Made by a program: the position numbers and the translations under genes. A stretch of 33,853 bases of DNA from a virus. The stretch lies in IMG/VR virus record IMGVR_UViG_3300030103_001499, positions 1 through 33,853 of that record; one strand, written 5' to 3'. Of this stretch, positions 5,101 to 28,213 are shown one piece after another (the first letter of the stretch is position 1; each line of letters begins with the position of its first letter). The notes beneath the pieces are model-generated. The model saw only the letters and a list, made by a program, of their open reading frames with translations. It was not told the DNA's origin and did no database searches.

Positions 5101-7497
5101 ATGGGTAAACCTAGAGATTTAGCAAACGTAGTTGCTACTGGAAATATACTTGCTGACGGTGCAGTAGCTCCTGCTGAATTGACAGGTGTTACATCCACAG
5201 CAGCAGAGATAAACATACTAGATGGAGTAACAGCAACTGCAGCAGAGTTGAACTTACTTGATGGTGTAACTGCTACCACTGCAGAACTTAACCATGTTGA
5301 CGGTGTTACATCTAATGTGCAGACACAGATGGACACCAAAGCTCCTGTAGCTGATCCAACGTTTACTGGTACTGCTACTGCTCCTACTGTCAATGCCTCT
5401 ACAGCTTTACAGATAGGTGGTGTTGCTGTAACCGCTACGGCTGCAGAACTAAACAAGATGGACGGTGTAACAGTTAGTGCATCTGATATAAATACAGTAA
5501 CAGCAAAAGCTCCTACTGCATCTCCTACATTTACTGGCGATGTAACAATACCAGATAAGATTGTACATGATGGTGATACCAATACAGCTATACGATTTGC
5601 AGACGCTGATACAGTTACTGTAGAAACAGGTGGCACAGAACGTATGCGTATTGATGACTCAGGAAGAGTTAATGTAGCAGCAACAACAGGTAATGAAAAA
5701 CTTAATGTGGCAGGAGCATTAGGAGTTTCTGGTGCATCTGCTAATTTTAGTGGTGGTAACGAAAGAGCATTAGTTGATTTTACTGGAACATTGGCTAGAT
5801 TTGGTCATGTTAATGGTGCATCTGGTAGTGCAAAAGATGTTTCTATTTTATCAGGTGGCGGTGAAAAATTTAGGTTTGGCTCATCAGGTCAGCTTGGCAT
5901 TGGCGGTGCAACCTACGGTACATCAGGACAGGTTCTAACATCTGGTGGTGCAAGTGCTGCACCTAGTTGGGTTGACGCTAGTGGTGGTGGTTCTATAGGG
6001 CTTACTGCTTCAGGCTCTATTACAGCAGGTGATCCTGTTGGTATAAATTCTAGTGGAACAGTACAAAAACTTATCCCTCCTGCAAACAAAGTAAATATAT
6101 CAAGTGGCATGGATACAGGTAATAACAGTATGCACATTACTACCATATACATAGGCAGTAATAAAGTTTTATTCTTTTGGAAAGAAGAGAGTCATCAGTA
6201 TAGAGCACAAATAGGTACACTTAGCGGTAGTTCTATGTCTCTTGGAACTCTTTATACCGTTAATGATGATACAAGTTCTTCTTCTCCTTCTTATGGAAGG
6301 GCTGTATACGCCAGTAATACTGGACAAGTAATATTTTTCTACACATATGGTGGTAATTCTGACAGAGGTTATGCAAGGGCGGCTACTGTAAGTGGTACTA
6401 GTCTAAGTTTTGGAAGTGAAATCAATATTGGAAACAATAATGCTCTCTACATGGGTGCTATGGGGTGGGATGCTAGTGCACAGAGAGCAATTCTTGTATA
6501 CAGATATAACAATAAATGTACTTACTCCCTTGTAAGTGTTAGCGGCAATACTTTAACAGTGCAACAAGACCTTCAAGATGTTGGTGATGGATCAAATGTA
6601 ACAAATGGAACTCGAGTAGTTTACGACAGCACAGCACAAAAAACTATAGTGTTTTATCCTGATCCCTCAAATAACAAACTTAAAATTGTGTGTATGGATG
6701 TTGGAAGTAGCAGTGTAACTCAAGGAACTCAAGTTGCTAGATCAAGTGATAGATACTTTGGTGATCAAAGGCTTGGAGCAGCATTTGTCCCTGGAATTAA
6801 TAAAGTAGGATATGCTTATATTGTAAATGGCAGTAGTAGCGATGTGCCACATACAATTAGAGCAGGAACTATTACCCTTAGTGGCACGACTATTACAGTA
6901 AATGAAAATCAAGTATTAGATCATGATAACATAAATGATTACACTTATCTTGAATATAGTGTGGATAATAACGGAAAAGTCTTAATTACTTACGATGATA
7001 ATGATGGCTCTCTGGATGATAAAATAAGAGCAATTATAGGTTCTTATTCAGGCAACACTTTTTCTTCAGTAAAAGCAGACTTTACCTTAATTGAAGGTCT
7101 AATTCTTGCAGGTCCAATGAGCCAATGTTTTACCGATAGTACAAACAATAAATTTGTTCATTTTGCACATCAATCAACAGGACAAGCAGCAACTGATCGG
7201 GGATATGTAGCCAATGTTATAGGTGGTTTTGATGATTTAATTTCGTTTGATAACTGGATAGGTTTAGCCTCCCAAAGCGTTTCTGATGGAGCTTCAGTAG
7301 ATGTTACTGTGCAAGGCGGTTTAAACGAAAATCAAAGTAGTTTAGATGTTGGTCAAAAATATTATATCCAAGATGATGGTACAATTGGAACTACCTTAAA
7401 GGAAAATAGAGAAATTGGGATAGCAACTGCTGCAACTAAAGTGTTTTTAACAAACGGTAGTATACTAATAGGTCCAACAGGATATAATGCTAACTAA
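5101..7497 (+). CDS. Tail fibre / receptor-binding protein with shaft repeats and propeller-like repeats
   Basis: The protein has 798 residues and its ATG is preceded by AGAGGATAGACAAC. Residues about 25-75 and 112-125 carry ELNxLDGVT shaft repeats. Residues about 75-200 contain paired APTVNAST / APTASPTFTGDV units and a TGGTERMRIDDSGRV motif, which is common in fibres with autoproteolytic or collar domains. Residues about 320-690 hold six or so recurring units of about 55 residues. Each has a T-L-S-G-x-x-x-x-x-G strand followed by a strand ending in hydrophobic-Y, such as GQVIFFYTY, RAILVYRY and KTIVFYPD. This looks like a beta-propeller. The C-terminal part (VGQKYYIQDDGTIGTT, then EIGIATAATKVFL) is another known fibre-end motif. 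Host binding is the likely role. Confidence 0.85.
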   Translation: MGKPRDLANVVATGNILADGAVAPAELTGVTSTAAEINILDGVTATAAELNLLDGVTATTAELNHVDGVTSNVQTQMDTKAPVADPTFTGTATAPTVNASTALQIGGVAVTATAAELNKMDGVTVSASDINTVTAKAPTASPTFTGDVTIPDKIVHDGDTNTAIRFADADTVTVETGGTERMRIDDSGRVNVAATTGNEKLNVAGALGVSGASANFSGGNERALVDFTGTLARFGHVNGASGSAKDVSILSGGGEKFRFGSSGQLGIGGATYGTSGQVLTSGGASAAPSWVDASGGGSIGLTASGSITAGDPVGINSSGTVQKLIPPANKVNISSGMDTGNNSMHITTIYIGSNKVLFFWKEESHQYRAQIGTLSGSSMSLGTLYTVNDDTSSSSPSYGRAVYASNTGQVIFFYTYGGNSDRGYARAATVSGTSLSFGSEINIGNNNALYMGAMGWDASAQRAILVYRYNNKCTYSLVSVSGNTLTVQQDLQDVGDGSNVTNGTRVVYDSTAQKTIVFYPDPSNNKLKIVCMDVGSSSVTQGTQVARSSDRYFGDQRLGAAFVPGINKVGYAYIVNGSSSDVPHTIRAGTITLSGTTITVNENQVLDHDNINDYTYLEYSVDNNGKVLITYDDNDGSLDDKIRAIIGSYSGNTFSSVKADFTLIEGLILAGPMSQCFTDSTNNKFVHFAHQSTGQAATDRGYVANVIGGFDDLISFDNWIGLASQSVSDGASVDVTVQGGLNENQSSLDVGQKYYIQDDGTIGTTLKENREIGIATAATKVFLTNGSILIGPTGYNAN
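5188..5310 (+). repeat. In-frame ELNxLDGVT shaft repeats, second fibre
   Basis: Three consecutive units (AEINILDGVT, AELNLLDGVT, AELNHVDGVT) share the motif of the repeats at 1381-1572 in another gene. Codon choice again differs between copies. Confidence 0.8.
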
Positions 7498-7761: not shown

Positions 7762-10700
7762 ATGTCTAATACAGAAAAAGAATACTTAAAAGCATCTGGT
7801 CTTTTGAAACAACAGGCTTCTGCAAAAGCTAAAGAGATAGCACAAAAAATGGCTGATAAACAGCCTAGTGATAGGCAGCTAGAAAAAGAAAGAGAAGCAG
7901 CAGCTGCGGCAGAAGCTAGAGATGAACAATTGATGTCTGGAGATTTTGATCAAGCTACTTCAAGCACTCCTATTCTTTATAACAACGGACAAGCAGGTAC
8001 ACAGTCAGATCTTCAAAGATTTGATGACGGTAAAGGATACGCTGTTTATGACAGTTTTACAGATGCTGATGGCAATCGATACGTAGCTGTGTCTGGTAAA
8101 AACTCTAGCTTTATAGAAAAAATAAACACTGATGGAACTGTTGAAAGAATTGAGAATGTTTCTAAAAGTTCTTTTAAAAAGAGAAAGTCAGGTGGAGAAA
8201 GGAATAAACATGTAAACAGAGTCGTTGGTGCGCTTGACAGATTAAAAGAAGGTTTGTCTACTACTGCTGACACTAGCACTGACACTGACACAGCTACTAC
8301 CACTACTACTCAAACAGCAGAAGAAATAGCAGTATCAAATTTAGCTGATGCAGTATATCTTTCTAGTGTTACAGGTGTTTCAACAGAGACTATGAACGAG
8401 CTAAAGATAGCTGCAGGTCTTACAGAAGATACACCTATTAGCTCTTCAGGAACAGGAGAAGTAGGAGAGCAAAGCGTTCAAGCTTTACTTGAAAAATACG
8501 GATACAATATAGGAAACCAAGGAACATTTTATGAGAACTCTACTTTAGGTGGTCCTAAAGATGCAGGGGCAAAAGCTTATCTTGGTGTTTATAAACAAGC
8601 TCTACTATATGGATATTTAGAAACTACACCAGATAATCTTACTAGTTTTGCAGGTAGAATTGATGGTGACACTGGTCGAGAACACAGGTTCATGGTTAAT
8701 GATAACCTTGCTAACCAAGTTCTTATTAGAGATCTTTTAAAAGAATCAGGTGAAGAAAGTATAGCAAATAAACCAGTGGGTGACTTTGATGGTATCTACG
8801 ATAAAAAGTATTTAGATCAAGAACAGTCTATAAATCAACAGTATCAAGGGATTAGAGGGGAAGGTCAAAAACCTTTTTCTGTATCCGGTGATTTATACAA
8901 CTCTTTACAATGGGCTAAAATATTAAAACTGATAATAGATACTGATGATGACGTTGAAACATCTCTTAATCAAACTGCTCAAATAGATATTGCTCAAGAT
9001 CCCACAGCACCTACAGGGCAGACTGGTAGCTTCTTTACTCCAAACGCTACTGGTTTCATCTCAACACCACTATCAGAAACAAGCAATTTAGGAACTTCAA
9101 CTCCTGCCATGTCAGGTGTAACTCAACAAGAAATACCTACATTTGAACAAGGTCTAGAAAACCAAGAAGATAGTTTTATTGCTAGATCAAATCTACAGCA
9201 ACAGTTCTACCAACCCCAAACTCCACAAGAGCAGTTTAATCAAGGACAAGCTCCTTCTTTTGAAATGAGGCTATACAGAAATAGTTTTGGTATGACTATG
9301 TATATCCAACATATTAACGGTAAACCAACTCAGCCTATTCCTGCAGGATACTACCTAGTTCCTAAGACTGCTACTACACAGACTGCACAGACTACACAGC
9401 AACAGCAAGGTCAGACCCAAGGACAAGTTCAAGGTCAGTACCAAGGTGGTATGATACAAAGCTATGCTCCAGGTGGTGTTGTTGTTCAGGATGGTACACA
9501 GTTTAAGATACAGTATCCTGATGGTACTTTCTCACAAATGTATGCAACACTAGCAGAAGCTAACGCAGCAAATGTAGATATAAGCCCAATTGTTGATCCT
9601 GCTCCTATGCCTCCCATAACAGCAGACATAAATCAGAGTGGTATAAATACTCAGCAAGAAGTAACAAAAGAAGATTTAGGTCAGTTTCAAAGAAACCTTA
9701 TTGCTCAGGCTTACGGAGCACCTCAAGGTGCAGTGGCTGCAGCACCAACATCTTACATAGATCCTAACACTTACGGATCTGTGATAGAAGCTACTGCAGG
9801 TCAGTCACTAGGCGTAGCTCCTATTGTACGCAGAGATGAAGTAGCGCAAATGGGTACTGGCGTAGTAGCTGATGCACCCACAGAAAAAAGAGCAGCAGAC
9901 ATTAACGCTGTTAAAACACAGACTGGTATAACTTCAGCTACTGCAACAATGAGTGCTGCCAATCTGGATCAACCTTCTGACACTATTACTGCTCAACAAC
10001 AAAATACTTCTGGTGTTTCTGGTTTAGCAGGGGTAACGAGTTCTGCTCTTAACGTTGAAAATGCTCCTACTCGTGAATTACGCACAGGTCCAAACGGAGA
10101 GCTTGTTGTTGGTACTGGTGTTGACCAAGGAAAAGTATCAGCAACATTTGGAACTGGTGAAATACAAGCCGCTACGGTGCAAGACGAACTAGCTTCTTTG
10201 ATGCAACAGTTTGAGGGTGGTAACACACCTGCTTGGGCTGCAGGATCTATGAGAAGAGCTACAGCAGTCCTAGCAGAACGTGGTCTTGGTGCTTCATCTC
10301 TTGCAGGACAAGCTATTGTACAGGCTGCTATGGAAGCCGCATTACCTATTGCTCAAATAGATGCAGGTAACAAACAGCAGGTGGCTCTGTTTAAAGCTGA
10401 ACAACGTGCTAAGTTCTTAGGCATTGAGTTTGATCAAGCTTTCCAAGCTAAAGTAAAAAATGCTACTACTGTATCTGAGATTGCTAACATGCAGTTTAGT
10501 GCGGATCAACAGATAGCCTTAGAAAATTCTAGGGCTGCAAACACTATGCAACTTCAGAACCTATCTAACAGGCAAGCCGTAGTTATGGCTGAGGCTGCTG
10601 CCATATCACAGCTTGACATATCTAACCTTAACAACAGACAGCAAGCACAAGTACAAAACGCTCAAAACTTTTTACAAGTTGACATGGCTAACTTGTCTAA

Positions 10701-22552: not shown

Positions 22553-22581
22553 TACATAGTGTTGTGGTAGTAGGTTGTCAA
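22553..22581 (-). promoter_or_regulatory. Sigma-70-like promoter candidate for SSB
   Basis: On the minus strand TTGACA (22581-22576) is followed after 17 bases by TATGTA (22558-22553). The -35 box is a perfect match and the -10 box matches in its first three positions. It overlaps the polymerase stop codon and would start transcription about 25 bases before the SSB ATG. It is a prediction by consensus only. Confidence 0.5.
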
Positions 22582-24539
22582 TGGGTTTCAGCCCAATTTT
22601 TTCCTATGTCATATGATCCTGGCGTAGGTATCTTAAAACCTAAGTCTTCCCCAGTTTCTAACATGCAGTCAGCTTGTATCTGACCTAACCTTCTAGCTTC
22701 TTCCTCTGTTCCTGTTACCTCCACTTGATATTCGTCATGAATAAAACCAACCATTTTAAAGTTGATACCTTCTTGTCTGGCTTTGTCGTGCCACTTGAGT
22801 AGACTGTGCTTCATCAAACAAGCTTCACCGTTCTGTAGCATACCTGCCAAGGTTTTGTGTGCGTTGGGTACTGGAACTTTACGTCCATCATACCCAGTAA
22901 AATATCCTTGCTCTGCAACGTAGGGTACAAGTTGGTTCTTTAAATTATATAAACCATCAATACTCATTTCAAAACGAGTACGTGCTTGGGTTGCCGCCAT
23001 CATACTTACGTTAAGTATCTGTCCTGTCTTTGCTACCCCTGCTCCAAGTAACCAAGCATAAATAAAAGTCTTTGCCATATCCCTTGTACCATTAGGAACG
23101 TTTAAAGCTTTCTTGTTTACGTTATGGATATCTGTTTCGTTTTCTTTCTTTCCTGTCATGATAGCTTGAGCATATTGATCGGCATCAAAATGTCTCCAAA
23201 GATAATCTGCTAACACTCGCAGCTGAATACCGTCAGCATCCGTACCAACTAACCAAGAGCCTGATGGTACAGTCCAACAAGCACGTAAGTGCAGATCAAA
23301 TTGTTTCTTTACCTGTTCTACTGCAGTCTTTGCTTCACCATGAAACGGAGAGGATATGTTAGCAGTGTTAGGATCTTTGTGAGAACATCGTCCTGTCCAT
23401 GCTCCAATGTTGTTGATGCTACCGTGTATCCTTAAATCTTCACCACACTGTCCTAGCCACTCCACCAGTGAGGAACGCCTACCTTCAAGTGTCAACCACT
23501 GGGCTAGAGCTTTTGCTCCTGTAGGTGCTGTGTCAGGAAGTGTACTAAGATTTGCCTCTGAAACTGTGTATCCATAAACATCCAAGTGAGCTTTCTTTTT
23601 GTCATAAAATTCTTGATCCATAGAAGCAATTGACTTCTTCCAAGGGTCACCAACCTTAGTTCTTGAAAACTCTATAGCAGTTTTTGTTTTGTCTACTGGC
23701 TTCCACTTGGCTTCCCACAGTGCATCAATACGATCTTTAACTGATCCAGGGTTGAAGCTAATCCAGTCAGAACAAATTAGATCTTCCCCTTCAATGTGTG
23801 TCATACCATACTTTTCTTTTGCTTTTGTGACGGTAGACATTTCAGTTCCGTCTTTCTTTAGTCGGTACTTTATCCTGTTTACTTCCGTAAGTTTAGGTGG
23901 AAAGTCTACTTGAAATTGTTCCTCTAAAGTTTTCATCTTTGTTTGTATTGAGTTAAGAAGAAACTCTGCCTTTGGTTTGTCAAAACAAAAACCGTAGTAC
24001 TGAGTCCGTACCAGTTCTATCTGTACATCGTGTTCTGTTCTTAATGATTTAGTCCAATCAGAATCCCAAATAATATCATGGAAATGCTCATACAAAGAAC
24101 TTGTAACCTCGATGTCTTGATACCAGTAGTCAACCATCTCAACACTGTATCTAGAAAAATCATTAAAATCTCCTTTATGTTTATCTAATCTTATACCCCA
24201 AGCTTTAAGACTGTGAGGGTACTGAGCACCCTTTGGGATAGCTATGTTATAATCTACTAACCTACTTATAATAACAGTATCAACAATCTTTCTTGGATCT
24301 ATGATACCTGGTTTTAAAAGTTTGTTTAACATCGGTGCATCAAACTGTACAAAGTTGTGACCAACAATCAGGTCTGCTGATTCATACCACTTGATAGCTT
24401 CAGCCTTAGCAACTGGATCTTCATGGCAGTTATCAAACCTTTGTATTCTACCAGTGCTTAAATCTTTACCACCACAAATCCATAGCTTGTCGCTATCCTC
24501 AAGACCGTTAGTCTCTATATCACTGACAACTATTCTCAT
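22578..24539 (-). CDS. DNA polymerase I family (family A, T7 gp5-like) with 3'-5' exonuclease
   Basis: This 653-residue enzyme replicates the phage genome. The N-terminal exonuclease starts VVSDIETNG (Asp7, Glu9), as in T7 gp5. LIVGHNFVQFD and YWYQDIEVTSSLYEH are further exonuclease motifs. The polymerase palm and fingers hold motif A (TDADGIQLR, Asp434), motif B (RDMAKTFIYAWLLGAG, Arg486, Lys490, Tyr494) and motif C (VGFIHDEYQVEV, His601, Asp602, Glu603). Two positions conserved in T7 and E. coli differ: Gln439 stands where T7 has Glu480, and Leu498 where T7 has Tyr530. The protein is about 50 residues shorter than T7 gp5. Its ATGA start overlaps the primase-helicase stop. Confidence 0.95.
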   Translation of the reverse strand: MRIVVSDIETNGLEDSDKLWICGGKDLSTGRIQRFDNCHEDPVAKAEAIKWYESADLIVGHNFVQFDAPMLNKLLKPGIIDPRKIVDTVIISRLVDYNIAIPKGAQYPHSLKAWGIRLDKHKGDFNDFSRYSVEMVDYWYQDIEVTSSLYEHFHDIIWDSDWTKSLRTEHDVQIELVRTQYYGFCFDKPKAEFLLNSIQTKMKTLEEQFQVDFPPKLTEVNRIKYRLKKDGTEMSTVTKAKEKYGMTHIEGEDLICSDWISFNPGSVKDRIDALWEAKWKPVDKTKTAIEFSRTKVGDPWKKSIASMDQEFYDKKKAHLDVYGYTVSEANLSTLPDTAPTGAKALAQWLTLEGRRSSLVEWLGQCGEDLRIHGSINNIGAWTGRCSHKDPNTANISSPFHGEAKTAVEQVKKQFDLHLRACWTVPSGSWLVGTDADGIQLRVLADYLWRHFDADQYAQAIMTGKKENETDIHNVNKKALNVPNGTRDMAKTFIYAWLLGAGVAKTGQILNVSMMAATQARTRFEMSIDGLYNLKNQLVPYVAEQGYFTGYDGRKVPVPNAHKTLAGMLQNGEACLMKHSLLKWHDKARQEGINFKMVGFIHDEYQVEVTGTEEEARRLGQIQADCMLETGEDLGFKIPTPGSYDIGKNWAETH

Positions 24540-26134
24540 ACGTTGAATACTACCTCTTCAAGTATTGTAGTCTCTGGATCATAATACACTGAACCTGAGT
24601 TACCTAACTTTGCAAAGGGTCTGTTCTTGTCAATAATAAATTGGGTGGTATTGCGTTCAGTTTCGTCTTCTGACTCAACGTTACGACTAAGTTTGATACA
24701 AATAATAGCTTCCTCTTCAAGAGAAGATGCGTACTTTGTTCGCCCATCATCGTTAACCTGAGAGATAAATACGACACCAATGTTTAACTCTTTTGCAAGC
24801 TGCGCCATCCTTGCACCAATGGTAGTTAGTGTACTAGTGGCGGCATCCACCCCAGAGTTTGACAGATAAGCCAGACGTTGAACGTGATCTATGAAGATGT
24901 ACTCAGCACCGTAAACTGTGGCTGACGTTCTTACATAATCAAGAACCATCATAGGATCGTCATGCCCTTCCATGTAGAACACAACAGACTTGTCACCACC
25001 ACCTAACTTTTGGGCAGCATCTATTACTTGTTGTTCTGTGAACCCATTTGCTTCTGCGTCTTCTTTAGTTCGGACATTCTTACCTAGTTCGTAGGTTGCC
25101 ATGCCTCTGTAGGTTGTACCCTTCATCTCTTCCATGTGTAGCATTGCTACCTTAGTTCCTTGACGCAACAATCCTACCTCAAAGTATCTGACTAACTCAG
25201 TCTTACCCTGACCCCTGAGTGCTTTGATAAAGGTTAGTCCACCTTTAACAAGACCACGCATCTTATCATCTAAGCCAGTGTGTCCTGTTGGTACATACTC
25301 GTAGGGGTTCTCTGTTTCTATTGCTTGCTTGATTGCTAGATCACCAACAAAAAAGTTATCAGGTGAATATCTCTGAGGTTTAAATGCTGCCCACTTCAAA
25401 GCTTCAGCATCACCTTCCATCAAGAACTCGTTTGCATCCTTCCACTTGGACATAGGAACGTAGTAAAACTTTTCTGGCATCAGATTATAAAGTTTTTGTG
25501 CTGCAGCTTTACCTGTAGCATCGGACAATTCCCCTGCGTAGACCACTGTTTCAAATGAGTCTAAGTATTTATGGTTTTCTTTTATGAAAGTTTCGGACAT
25601 CGATCCGCTTGGCAAAGACTTAACTGGGTAAGCACCGTCCATAACCTCGTACAAACTAGCGGCATCAAACTCACCTTCAGTAAGGTAAATTCTTTTAGAA
25701 GATCCTGCGTTAAACTCAGGACCAAATAAAGAGTTCTGACCTTTGCCCTTCCAGAAGAAACGTTTCTCGTGATAGCCACGATACTTAACAGCACCATTAG
25801 GGTACTGAAAGGCGTATCTTACTGGGGTGTTATTCTCTCCGTATTGAAGTTGAATATTAAATAGTTTTGCAGTCTTTTCTTTTAGTCCACGTATGCCATC
25901 AAACCTACCACTAATTACTTTGGTCTTGTGTAAGTCCACCTTTGGTGGTGGAGGTGGGTAGGTTGCTTCAGCCCAATCAAATTTTTTATCTGATCCAGGG
26001 TAACCTCTACCGCATGAATGACAGTGACCAACCTTCTGGTTTATGTTGTAACTAAATGCGTCACTACTTGCACAATCCTCATACGGACACGGCTGATGTG
26101 ATATCTCTCCGTTATTCTTTACCACTGCTTTCAT
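24536..26134 (-). CDS. Primase-helicase, T7 gp4-like
   Basis: This 532-residue protein combines three modules. A zinc ribbon has Cys16, Cys21, Cys38 and Cys41 (CPYEDC, CHSC). A TOPRIM domain has LTEGEFDAAS (Glu153, Glu155, Asp157) and later WKDANEF. A RecA-like helicase has a Walker A-like ALRGQGKTE, then YIFIDHVQRL, VVFISQ and DKNRPFAKLGNSG near the end. It unwinds the fork and makes primers for the adjacent polymerase. The second TOPRIM acidic pair is reduced, since T7 has D-x-D-x-x-G and this protein reads L-S-D-A-T-G at 203-208. I chose the ATG at 26134, 5 bases after AGAAAGGAT, over a TTG six bases earlier. It overlaps the upstream gene by 23 bases. Confidence 0.92.
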   Translation of the reverse strand: MKAVVKNNGEISHQPCPYEDCASSDAFSYNINQKVGHCHSCGRGYPGSDKKFDWAEATYPPPPPKVDLHKTKVISGRFDGIRGLKEKTAKLFNIQLQYGENNTPVRYAFQYPNGAVKYRGYHEKRFFWKGKGQNSLFGPEFNAGSSKRIYLTEGEFDAASLYEVMDGAYPVKSLPSGSMSETFIKENHKYLDSFETVVYAGELSDATGKAAAQKLYNLMPEKFYYVPMSKWKDANEFLMEGDAEALKWAAFKPQRYSPDNFFVGDLAIKQAIETENPYEYVPTGHTGLDDKMRGLVKGGLTFIKALRGQGKTELVRYFEVGLLRQGTKVAMLHMEEMKGTTYRGMATYELGKNVRTKEDAEANGFTEQQVIDAAQKLGGGDKSVVFYMEGHDDPMMVLDYVRTSATVYGAEYIFIDHVQRLAYLSNSGVDAATSTLTTIGARMAQLAKELNIGVVFISQVNDDGRTKYASSLEEEAIICIKLSRNVESEDETERNTTQFIIDKNRPFAKLGNSGSVYYDPETTILEEVVFNV

Positions 26135-26369
26135 TATCAATCCTTTCTAAAAGCTTTCTTCTGGATTTCTTTGGGAAGTCTTCCATATTCCATCCGTTAT
26201 TAACTTGCTCCACTGCCCAACTATAACTTATGTTAAAACATCTAGCAGCTTCAGCTATACTGTCAAAGGTTTTTCCGTATAATCTACATGATCTCCCTGG
26301 TTTTTTTATTGTTGGTGCATGTTTGATACGGATATGACAAGGTACTCCCTTTGGTTGCATTGACTTCAC
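26112..26369 (-). CDS. Small helix-turn-helix protein
   Basis: This protein of about 85 residues is basic. Its core, YGKTFDSIAEAARCFNISYSWAVEQVNNGW, reads as a helix-turn-helix like those of NUMOD1 or MerR-type modules (SI.EAAR...IS.....). I placed the start at the GTG whose last bases overlap the preceding stop (GTGA). An ATG at 26360 would shorten it by 3 residues and a GTG at 26372 would add one. The C-terminus is a charged helix and overlaps the primase-helicase start by 23 bases. It may bind DNA or regulate the replication operon. No nuclease domain is attached. Confidence 0.65.
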   Translation of the reverse strand: MKSMQPKGVPCHIRIKHAPTIKKPGRSCRLYGKTFDSIAEAARCFNISYSWAVEQVNNGWNMEDFPKKSRRKLLERIDNESSGKE

Positions 26370-27573: not shown

Positions 27574-27801
27574 TCATCGTGAGGATCGTCTGTCCAAAAC
27601 TTCTCCGTATAATTCATCCGCAATATTCCTCCCTGTTACTCTACTAACAGTGTTGATTGCGGCTTCTGCCCCCTTCTCAAACCCTTCATCAAAAGCATCA
27701 GCCACATCCTCGTTGTCTCTGTATCTTTTGTACAGAAACCCTGCGAGGAAAGACAACACAATCAATAGTATTGTTGTTGGCTCAGGTATGTAGATAGTCA
27801 A
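27574..27801 (-). CDS. 75-residue membrane-anchored protein with a PEP-CTERM-like N-terminus, TTG start
   Basis: The start is TTG, overlapping the preceding TGA by three bases (TTGA). AGAGGA lies 7 bases upstream and no ATG is available nearby. Residues 6-28 read PEPTTILLIVLSFLAGFLYKRYR: a PEP motif, one hydrophobic span and a basic cluster. That order matches a PEP-CTERM sorting signal, which is normally at the C-terminus. Here it is followed by 47 acidic, helical residues (ADAFDEGFEKGAEAAINTV). It is probably a simple N-terminal anchor that presents a helix to the cytoplasm. Function unknown. Confidence 0.65.
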   Translation of the reverse strand: MTIYIPEPTTILLIVLSFLAGFLYKRYRDNEDVADAFDEGFEKGAEAAINTVSRVTGRNIADELYGEVLDRRSSR

Positions 27802-27998
27802 TGGTAGTTCCTCTCATACTTTTCTTTCTTCCATTTCTGGAAATCCTTTTGAGTTAAATCGTTTTCTTCTAAGAACTCGTGGAGTTCTAATAGTCTTTCA
27901 AACAATTCAACATTTGTTACTAACACCCTTTGAAGAGTTTCTTCTTCAGTCTCTTCATTCATGGTTGCTAATGCTACCTTAAATTCTTCTTCTGTCAC
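27798..27998 (-). CDS. Small acidic helical protein (66 residues), probable GTG start
   Basis: An ATG at 28010 has no ribosome site, whereas GGAGG lies exactly 5 bases before the in-frame GTG at 27998. I therefore prefer the GTG. The protein is very acidic and helical (TEEEFKVALATMNEETEEETLQ, LFERLLELHEFLEENDL) and ends with a basic KKEKYERN segment. The gene is the first one downstream of an AT-rich inverted-repeat region that may hold its promoter. No family is recognised. Confidence 0.65.
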   Translation of the reverse strand: MTEEEFKVALATMNEETEEETLQRVLVTNVELFERLLELHEFLEENDLTQKDFQKWKKEKYERNYH

Positions 27999-28012
27999 TA
28001 TGACCTCCATTG

Positions 28013-28098
28013 TTACTTAAGGTAATACTACAAGTTATATTAATAATAATATTAATAACAACATAATTATAATTAACTGTAAGTAATACCTTAAGTAA
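28013..28098. repeat. AT-rich intergenic element with a 17-bp inverted repeat
   Basis: The arms TTACTTAAGGTAATACT (28013-28029) and AGTAATACCTTAAGTAA (28082-28098) match at 16 of 17 positions. The 52 bases between them are nearly all A/T, with another near-palindrome around TATTAATAATAATATTAATA. This is the longest stretch without a clear gene in the early block (27999-28141). It may be a replication origin, an operator, or the promoter for the genes to its left. A minus-strand TTGTTA, 16 bases, TATAAC pair lies inside it. No experiment or comparison supports one over another. Confidence 0.6.
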
Positions 28099-28141
28099 TA
28101 GTTGTAAGTTGTAATTTACATTTCAAGTATGGCAGATTGCC

Positions 28142-28213
28142 TCACCCATACAGTTGGTAGTAAGCCCAGACAAAGAAAGCAATCCAGGCTAATAAGGCTA
28201 TAGCTTCACCCAC
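28142..28213 (-). CDS. Possible 23-residue membrane microprotein
   Basis: A GTG that overlaps the end of the preceding small gene opens a frame for GEAIALLAWIAFFVWAYYQL, one clean hydrophobic span with aromatic edges, and stops at TGA. A GGAGG lies 12 bases upstream, which is rather far. The coding call rests on hydrophobicity and overlap alone. Confidence 0.35.
   Translation of the reverse strand: MGEAIALLAWIAFFVWAYYQLYG

Follow-up and report, generated by a model that had tools for sequence, protein, structure and literature searches.

What is the function of the largest gap between open reading frames (ORFs) in the early block of this viral genome fragment? The window, by which we mean the whole stretch of DNA analysed (33.9 kb), has in this block the gap that the preliminary description had pointed out, which measures 195 nt (28011–28205); the remaining early-block gaps longer than 30 nt measure 96, 96, 62 and 56 nt. 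Since ∼72 nt of the gap (28142–28213) can encode a peptide, closer to 130 nt of it are truly non-coding. The gap contains an inverted repeat, for which a replication origin or a cooperative operator had been proposed. Its arms (28013–28029 and 28082–28098) are indeed complementary at 16 of 17 positions across a 52-nt spacer, and when extended they match at 84% over 25 nt. This is the sole repeat of its kind in the window (17-bp arms, at least 16 matches, spacer up to 100), none comparable arose in eight first-order Markov shuffles of the window, and when the local AT-rich stretch was shuffled 2000 times, 16 matches were reached twice. The spacer is A/T-rich (46/52, 88%), so that ‘almost pure A/T’ was slightly generous, and CTTAAG is present in both arms but slightly off-centre. 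The actual units are dyads of 11 bp, the arms being the outer two of these (dyads 1 and 4) plus their inner flanks.

Judged by protein identity, the window comes from a marine roseophage of the CRP-9 type and covers a fragment of its genome. CRP-9 is the nearest match (primase/helicase, 74%; DNA polymerase, 76%), followed by CRP-13 (65% and 71%). Phages of the CRP-9 type are chimeras, according to the accessible part of one report, combining a replication half of Cobavirus type with a structural half of HMO-2011 type (PMC8528129). In the accessible part of the CRP-9 paper, the terms promoter, intergenic and skew do not occur, and a literature search at the level of listings found no paper describing the element. 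Downstream of the element lie T7-like replisome genes, recognized by PHROG matches, for primase/helicase, family A polymerase and a Gp2.5-like SSB. The first gene past the element has homologues in 16 of 19 records compared, with no match in PHROG and none above the cut-off in Pfam; its conserved start is probably the GTG at 27998, which is preceded by GGAGG. No tRNA was found, and the annotations of CRP-9 and CRP-13 include neither an RNA polymerase gene nor a temporal regulator gene. The window stops short of the late-operon head, which is covered by contig L064 (polymerase 99% identical to that of the window).

Comparison with relatives resolved the element into four 11-bp dyads of consensus TACTNNNAGTA, a tandem pair flanking the AT core on each side. 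The members of each pair are 12 bp apart, and the array as a whole follows closely on a promoter-like ACTTGAA. Read along the minus strand, ACTTGAA comes after an upstream dyad that most lineages possess and is followed by a −10-like position, dyads at +36 and +48, the AT core, and dyads at +97 and +109 (Table 1); in the aligned relatives, dyad 4 is followed by a ribosome-binding site and then the first gene. The −35-like motif takes the forms ACTTGAAA, ACTTGACA and ACTTGTAA in the aligned relatives and ACTTGAAG in a second copy of the module, at the head of the late operon (see below). Where the window has AACTAT, TATAAT or AATAAT is found in the late-head copies and in L154, L120, L155, L189 and L057. 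The upstream dyad is kept in most aligned relatives and absent from the CRP-13/L053/L058/L067 type, and a similar GTGACA-N3-TGTCAC sits farther upstream of the late-head copy; the upstream dyad is possibly the site of a second regulator. We infer that the dyads bind protein, that ACTTGAA is a −35 element, and that binding affects transcription, possibly in the direction proposed below. The −35/−10-like motifs stand in a shared register at both copies. A simple sigma-70 scan of the window did not call the proposed promoter, which counts against an operator; it called two other weak promoters, fewer than expected by chance.

Table 1. Positions of the element's parts and of neighbouring genes in the window
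Feature	Position	Strand	Remarks
DNA polymerase	22578–24539	-	PHROG match; operon headed by element
Primase/helicase	24536–26140	-	PHROG match; operon headed by element
First gene past element	27798–28010	-	ORF list; small acidic protein of 70 aa
Dyad 4, TACCTTAAGTA	28014–28024	-	Centre +109
Dyad 3, AACTTGTAGTA	28026–28036	-	Centre +97
AT core	28037–28074	.	38 nt separating inner dyads
Dyad 2, TACTTACAGTT	28075–28085	-	Centre +48
Dyad 1, TACTTAAGGTA	28087–28097	-	Centre +36 from A of ACTTGAA
Weak −10-like hexamer, AACTAT	28098–28103	-	17 nt from TTGAAA; putative −10
−35-like motif, ACTTGAAA (TTGAAA)	28121–28128	-	Putative −35
Upstream dyad, GGCAATCTGCC	28131–28141	-	Consensus in relatives GACANNNTGTC; abuts −35-like motif
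Candidate hydrophobic peptide ORF, 23 codons	28142–28213	-	Translation; similar C-terminus in relatives; putatively coding; stops shortly ahead of element

To assess conservation, we took 70 polymerase loci, 31 of which had at least 3 kb of upstream DNA (the other 39 were too short), and added the window, CRP-9 and CRP-13 to give a test set of 34 records. A module score of 12.5 or more, based on the promoter motif and two dyads, was obtained for 31 of the 34, compared to 1 of 80 control stretches, which were mostly coding. A 32nd carrier, L057, was initially scored as a miss, its module lying 7.9 kb upstream of the polymerase. The remaining misses, L033 and L069, have just 3.0 and 3.6 kb of upstream DNA, and all 32 records with enough of it carry the module. 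Loss of the arms from relatives, which the preliminary description had named as evidence against its proposal, was thus not seen: dyads are present in every testable relative. In the aligned lineages, the dyads form two groups around the core, with a spacing of 12–13 bp. The core is not constant in sequence or length from one lineage to another, while the dyads are retained. Among relatives, the inner dyads are separated by anything from 40 to 51 bp, and hence the fixed helical phasing expected for looping is not seen, a point against an operator. One record, L025, was not part of the element alignment because a search for the ACTTG motif in the chosen form found none there; it does have the dyads, and the module test applied afterwards gave a positive result for it. 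In L155 and L189, whose polymerases are quite different (∼20% identity), TTGACA...TATAAT runs into the array.

In the complete genomes, a second occurrence of this module heads the late operon, with its register preserved. Dyad clusters in CRP-9 and CRP-13 are found at the element and before the first late gene. The late-head copy aligns with the element in six genomes of the CTTGAAGCGTG form (L064, L009, L013, L026, L063 and CRP-9), all with the order ACTTGAA (CCTTGAA in L009), TATAAT or TATACT, and dyads at about +36 and +48. Its −35-like TTGAAG is separated by 18 bp from a TATAAT that runs into dyad 1. In CRP-9, dyads at +36 and +48 accompany one of the 31 CTTGA[AC][AG] motifs on the plus strand and one of the 23 on the minus strand. 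These two, at 5157 and 55106, lie where the replication operon and the late operon begin; their register scores are 15 and 16 of 16, the next best is 10, and there is no third such module among the 54 motifs. The late head of CRP-13, where dyads follow a TTGACA-N16-TATAAT that lacks the CTTGAA context, fails the register test based on CTTGA[AC][AG] (best score 9/16, on the minus strand). CRP-13 also has a cluster of five dyads at 34752; it lies within the tail-fibre gene (33430–35436), and we took it as a coding repeat.

A promoter-like TTGNNN-N16/17-TANAAC stands directly before the first late gene of L075 (4594–4851) and its homologues, in 28 of 29 upstream regions (examined for 29 of the 31 distinct homologues, with the regular expression taking the first fit). 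The CRP-9 annotation begins this gene ∼17 codons earlier, within the motif. Only in the CRP-9 group does the spacer of the promoter-like motif before this gene (CRP-9 gp73) contain a clear dyad.

Repetition of the module at the late-operon head makes a shared gene-control site likelier than a special replication origin. We therefore favor, with a probability of roughly 0.7, the reading that the element is a cooperative operator array controlling the promoter of the replication operon, with the same array at the late promoter. The suggestion of a cooperative operator has held up well, in that tandem 11-bp dyads at 12–13 bp spacing adjoin a promoter-like motif and recur in register at the late head. 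Several regularly spaced copies of one dyad, as found here, are also a feature of multi-site operator arrays.

Replication origin, the other function first proposed, fares less well as a primary reading, because the genome has more than one such array and GC skew shows no break. Skew was unchanged across the element in CRP-9, CRP-13, the window and L064 (P = 0.97, 0.43, 0.54 and 0.75, respectively). The cumulative minimum lies elsewhere, where the early block has its opposite end (CRP-9, 55765; CRP-13, 54968), a result that the preliminary description had listed among those speaking against its proposal. One caveat here is that gene direction dominates skew in these genomes, making this a weak test. 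Near the skew minimum, other dyads, of the form GTTTAAN(1–4)TTAAAC, occur in CRP-9 (L073/L075; 55448, 55481 and 55535) and CRP-13 (L074/L076; 54702 and 54734). A pattern search showed them to be confined, in these two genomes, to the long stretch of non-coding DNA that precedes the first early gene, and they are also found in L009 and L013 near their starts. Given their location, this is a good place to seek an origin or early operators.

Duplex stability was calculated with nearest-neighbour values. In the window, the 100-bp stretch of lowest stability begins at 28023, within the element. In CRP-9 and CRP-13, however, the element ranks second to the late-head copy: the two copies of the module are the two least stable 100-bp stretches in CRP-9 (−93.5 and −98.8, next −110.0 kcal/mol) and again in CRP-13 (−103.3 and −105.2, next −112.5 kcal/mol). 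We also discarded the idea that AT content in these genomes peaks at the element; this is true of the first 50 kb only, and the late-head copy exceeds it.

These data bear on a primary origin of the T7 style, in which a transcript begun by host RNA polymerase at the upstream promoter would open the AT core and prime the T7-like replisome, with the dyads in a regulatory role. Low stability, the promoter-like motif immediately upstream, the T7-like replisome genes downstream and the position of the element (∼5 kb into the record for CRP-9, 3.4 kb for CRP-13) all fit such an origin. Yet an equally placed and even less stable copy exists at the late head, skew has its minimum elsewhere with no break at the element, and it is the dyads that persist as the core varies in sequence and length. 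On balance, we consider this origin unlikely as the primary function. The two readings are compatible, and a double role as operator and transcription-primed origin is possible. An iteron-type origin, in which a phage replication initiator would bind the dyads and melt the core, is much less probable still. Repeated short sites do adjoin an AT-rich core here; but an iteron origin calls for repeats unique to it and a cognate initiator gene, and what we found was the same sites at the late-operon head, unpredicted by an initiator-only role, and no recognizable initiator gene among the proteins scanned.

Could the symmetry instead serve an RNA structure, such as a long hairpin in the leader through which the first gene's translation or stability is controlled? 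Folded in silico, the whole element can indeed form one long hairpin (mean z −3.6 for 23 distinct sequences), which an operator does not need. On the other hand, the window contains no Rfam family. The near-palindrome noted within the core is visible in the window but not consistent among relatives (mean z −1.4 for 17 distinct cores). Nor do the central triplets of mirrored dyads show excess complementarity, being complementary in 33 and 38 of 69 cases versus 35 and 36 in controls; binding sites for a protein thus explain the arms without an arm-to-arm hairpin. We regard an RNA element as very improbable.

We then searched 2.9 million viral contigs with the pattern TACTNNNAGTANTACTNNNAGTA alone, and at least 120 loci were found. 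Among the matches listed, at least 53 loci encode CRP-9/CRP-13 homologues of at least 150 aa, and at least 38 have the first late gene, which in all 38 starts no more than 275 bp downstream of the array. The other listed loci include coding repeats and a few unrelated phages. Some, such as L088, L094, L114 and L200, are clearly low-complexity repeats and were rejected as arrays. In an unrelated marine phage, L169, which has no detectable protein in common with CRP-9/13, a two-by-two array of TACTTATAGTA-like dyads surrounds a core (8890–9080), near genes that by eye resemble terminase and portal genes.

Like CRP-9, the cobavirus CRP-4 has two places in its genome where a dyad array follows a promoter-like motif. 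TTGACA-N17-TACCCT-ATCTT precedes its own dyads at ∼1.65–1.75 kb, in the early block, and at 39.78–39.96 kb, in the non-coding end region adjoining the late operon. It differs in the core dyad, ACTTAAAGG, all five copies of which fall in these two arrays, and in the orientation of the end-region copy, which points away from the late genes. Three dyads lie close to the genome end of CRP-5. In CRP-2, there is one four-site cluster outside coding repeats (53625), with no clean tandem dyads on reading. No comparable array was found in HMO-2011, CRP-207 or ICBM2; the layout is therefore not general among relatives, which argues against an operator. At the late side of HMO-2011 (L206, ∼53200–53450), TTGACA-N17-TATAAT is followed by repeated ACTATAACTAAG and CACTTAAGTG, possibly an analogue with other sites.

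The recorded host of CRP-9, CRP-13, CRP-2 and CRP-4 is the same Rhodobacteraceae strain, FZCC0023, which suggests that the putative binding protein is encoded by the phage and not by the host. Sites for a host nucleoid or AT-silencing protein might be expected in DNA that is non-coding and very AT-rich, as the element is. Such a protein would not predict lineage-specific sites at 12–13 bp spacing, nor that phages of one host should differ as they do, with a variant dyad in CRP-4 and no clean tandem dyads in CRP-2, and we consider this explanation extremely unlikely.

Candidates for the phage protein were sought in CRP-9 and CRP-13. No known repressor family is among the matches listed (Pfam and PHROG; 72 small CRP-9/CRP-13 proteins; 25 of 37 and 80 families), a further point against an operator, and no relative of phi29 p4 is among the matches listed from these general family scans. 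The gp73 family (28 sequences) looks ribbon-helix-helix-like by eye, but such a regulator was supported neither by sequence libraries nor by an AlphaFold model or Foldseek. There was no Pfam or PDB sequence match of note. The monomer model is all-helical (mean pLDDT 86.4), although a monomer cannot show a paired strand that forms only in the dimer, and it matched no solved structure (best E 4.9). Moreover, CRP-2 and CRP-207 encode a gp73 homologue yet lack the array, which argues against gp73 as the regulator. The conserved last early gene (L053, 15593–15889; L067, 18744–18995) has an N-terminal PRGRPPKKK in the CRP-13 type only, a stretch that resembles an AT-hook.

How might an operator array work here? 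A dimeric DNA-binding protein, probably phage-encoded, would occupy the four TACTNNNAGTA dyads as two tandem pairs, most likely cooperatively. Once bound, it would block or gate RNA polymerase at a promoter with its start site at dyad 1. The AT-rich core would begin at the transcription start site and open easily when the protein leaves, so that occupancy of the array would set the timing of replication-operon transcription. At the late head, this protein would act as well; with the same promoter-plus-array there, one protein can time both operons together. A further, more doubtful idea is that the shared array is the wiring of the chimera, a cobavirus-like operator heading both halves under one phage regulator, with operator identity as a compatibility code for module exchange. 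The two copies of one module offer a testable handle on the timing of replication and late genes, and bear on how a chimeric phage holds both halves under one control. As a DNA signature, the array also finds relatives among viral contigs without a protein search.

Several known systems invite comparison. Arc/Mnt-type operators of phage P22 are short, close dyads bound cooperatively by small ribbon-helix-helix dimers. The element is like them in its short dyads close together and differs in that no ribbon-helix-helix protein was recognized here and TACTNNNAGTA is unlike their dyads. The primary origin of T7 consists of promoters plus an AT-rich segment. Here too, a putative promoter motif and then an AT-rich stretch lie upstream of T7-like replication genes, whereas CRP-9 and CRP-13 have no annotated phage RNA polymerase, dyad arrays are present, and a second copy heads the late operon. 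In phi29, as described in the accessible part of one paper, the phage proteins p4 and p6 act at a promoter region where inverted repeats are bound, A-tracts matter and two gene sets are timed (PMC3100819). The element shares with that region the inverted repeats at a (here putative) promoter and, if the dyads are bound as we propose, the timing of two gene sets. The difference is that one region in phi29 spans both early and late promoters, whereas here two separate, similar arrays head two operons.
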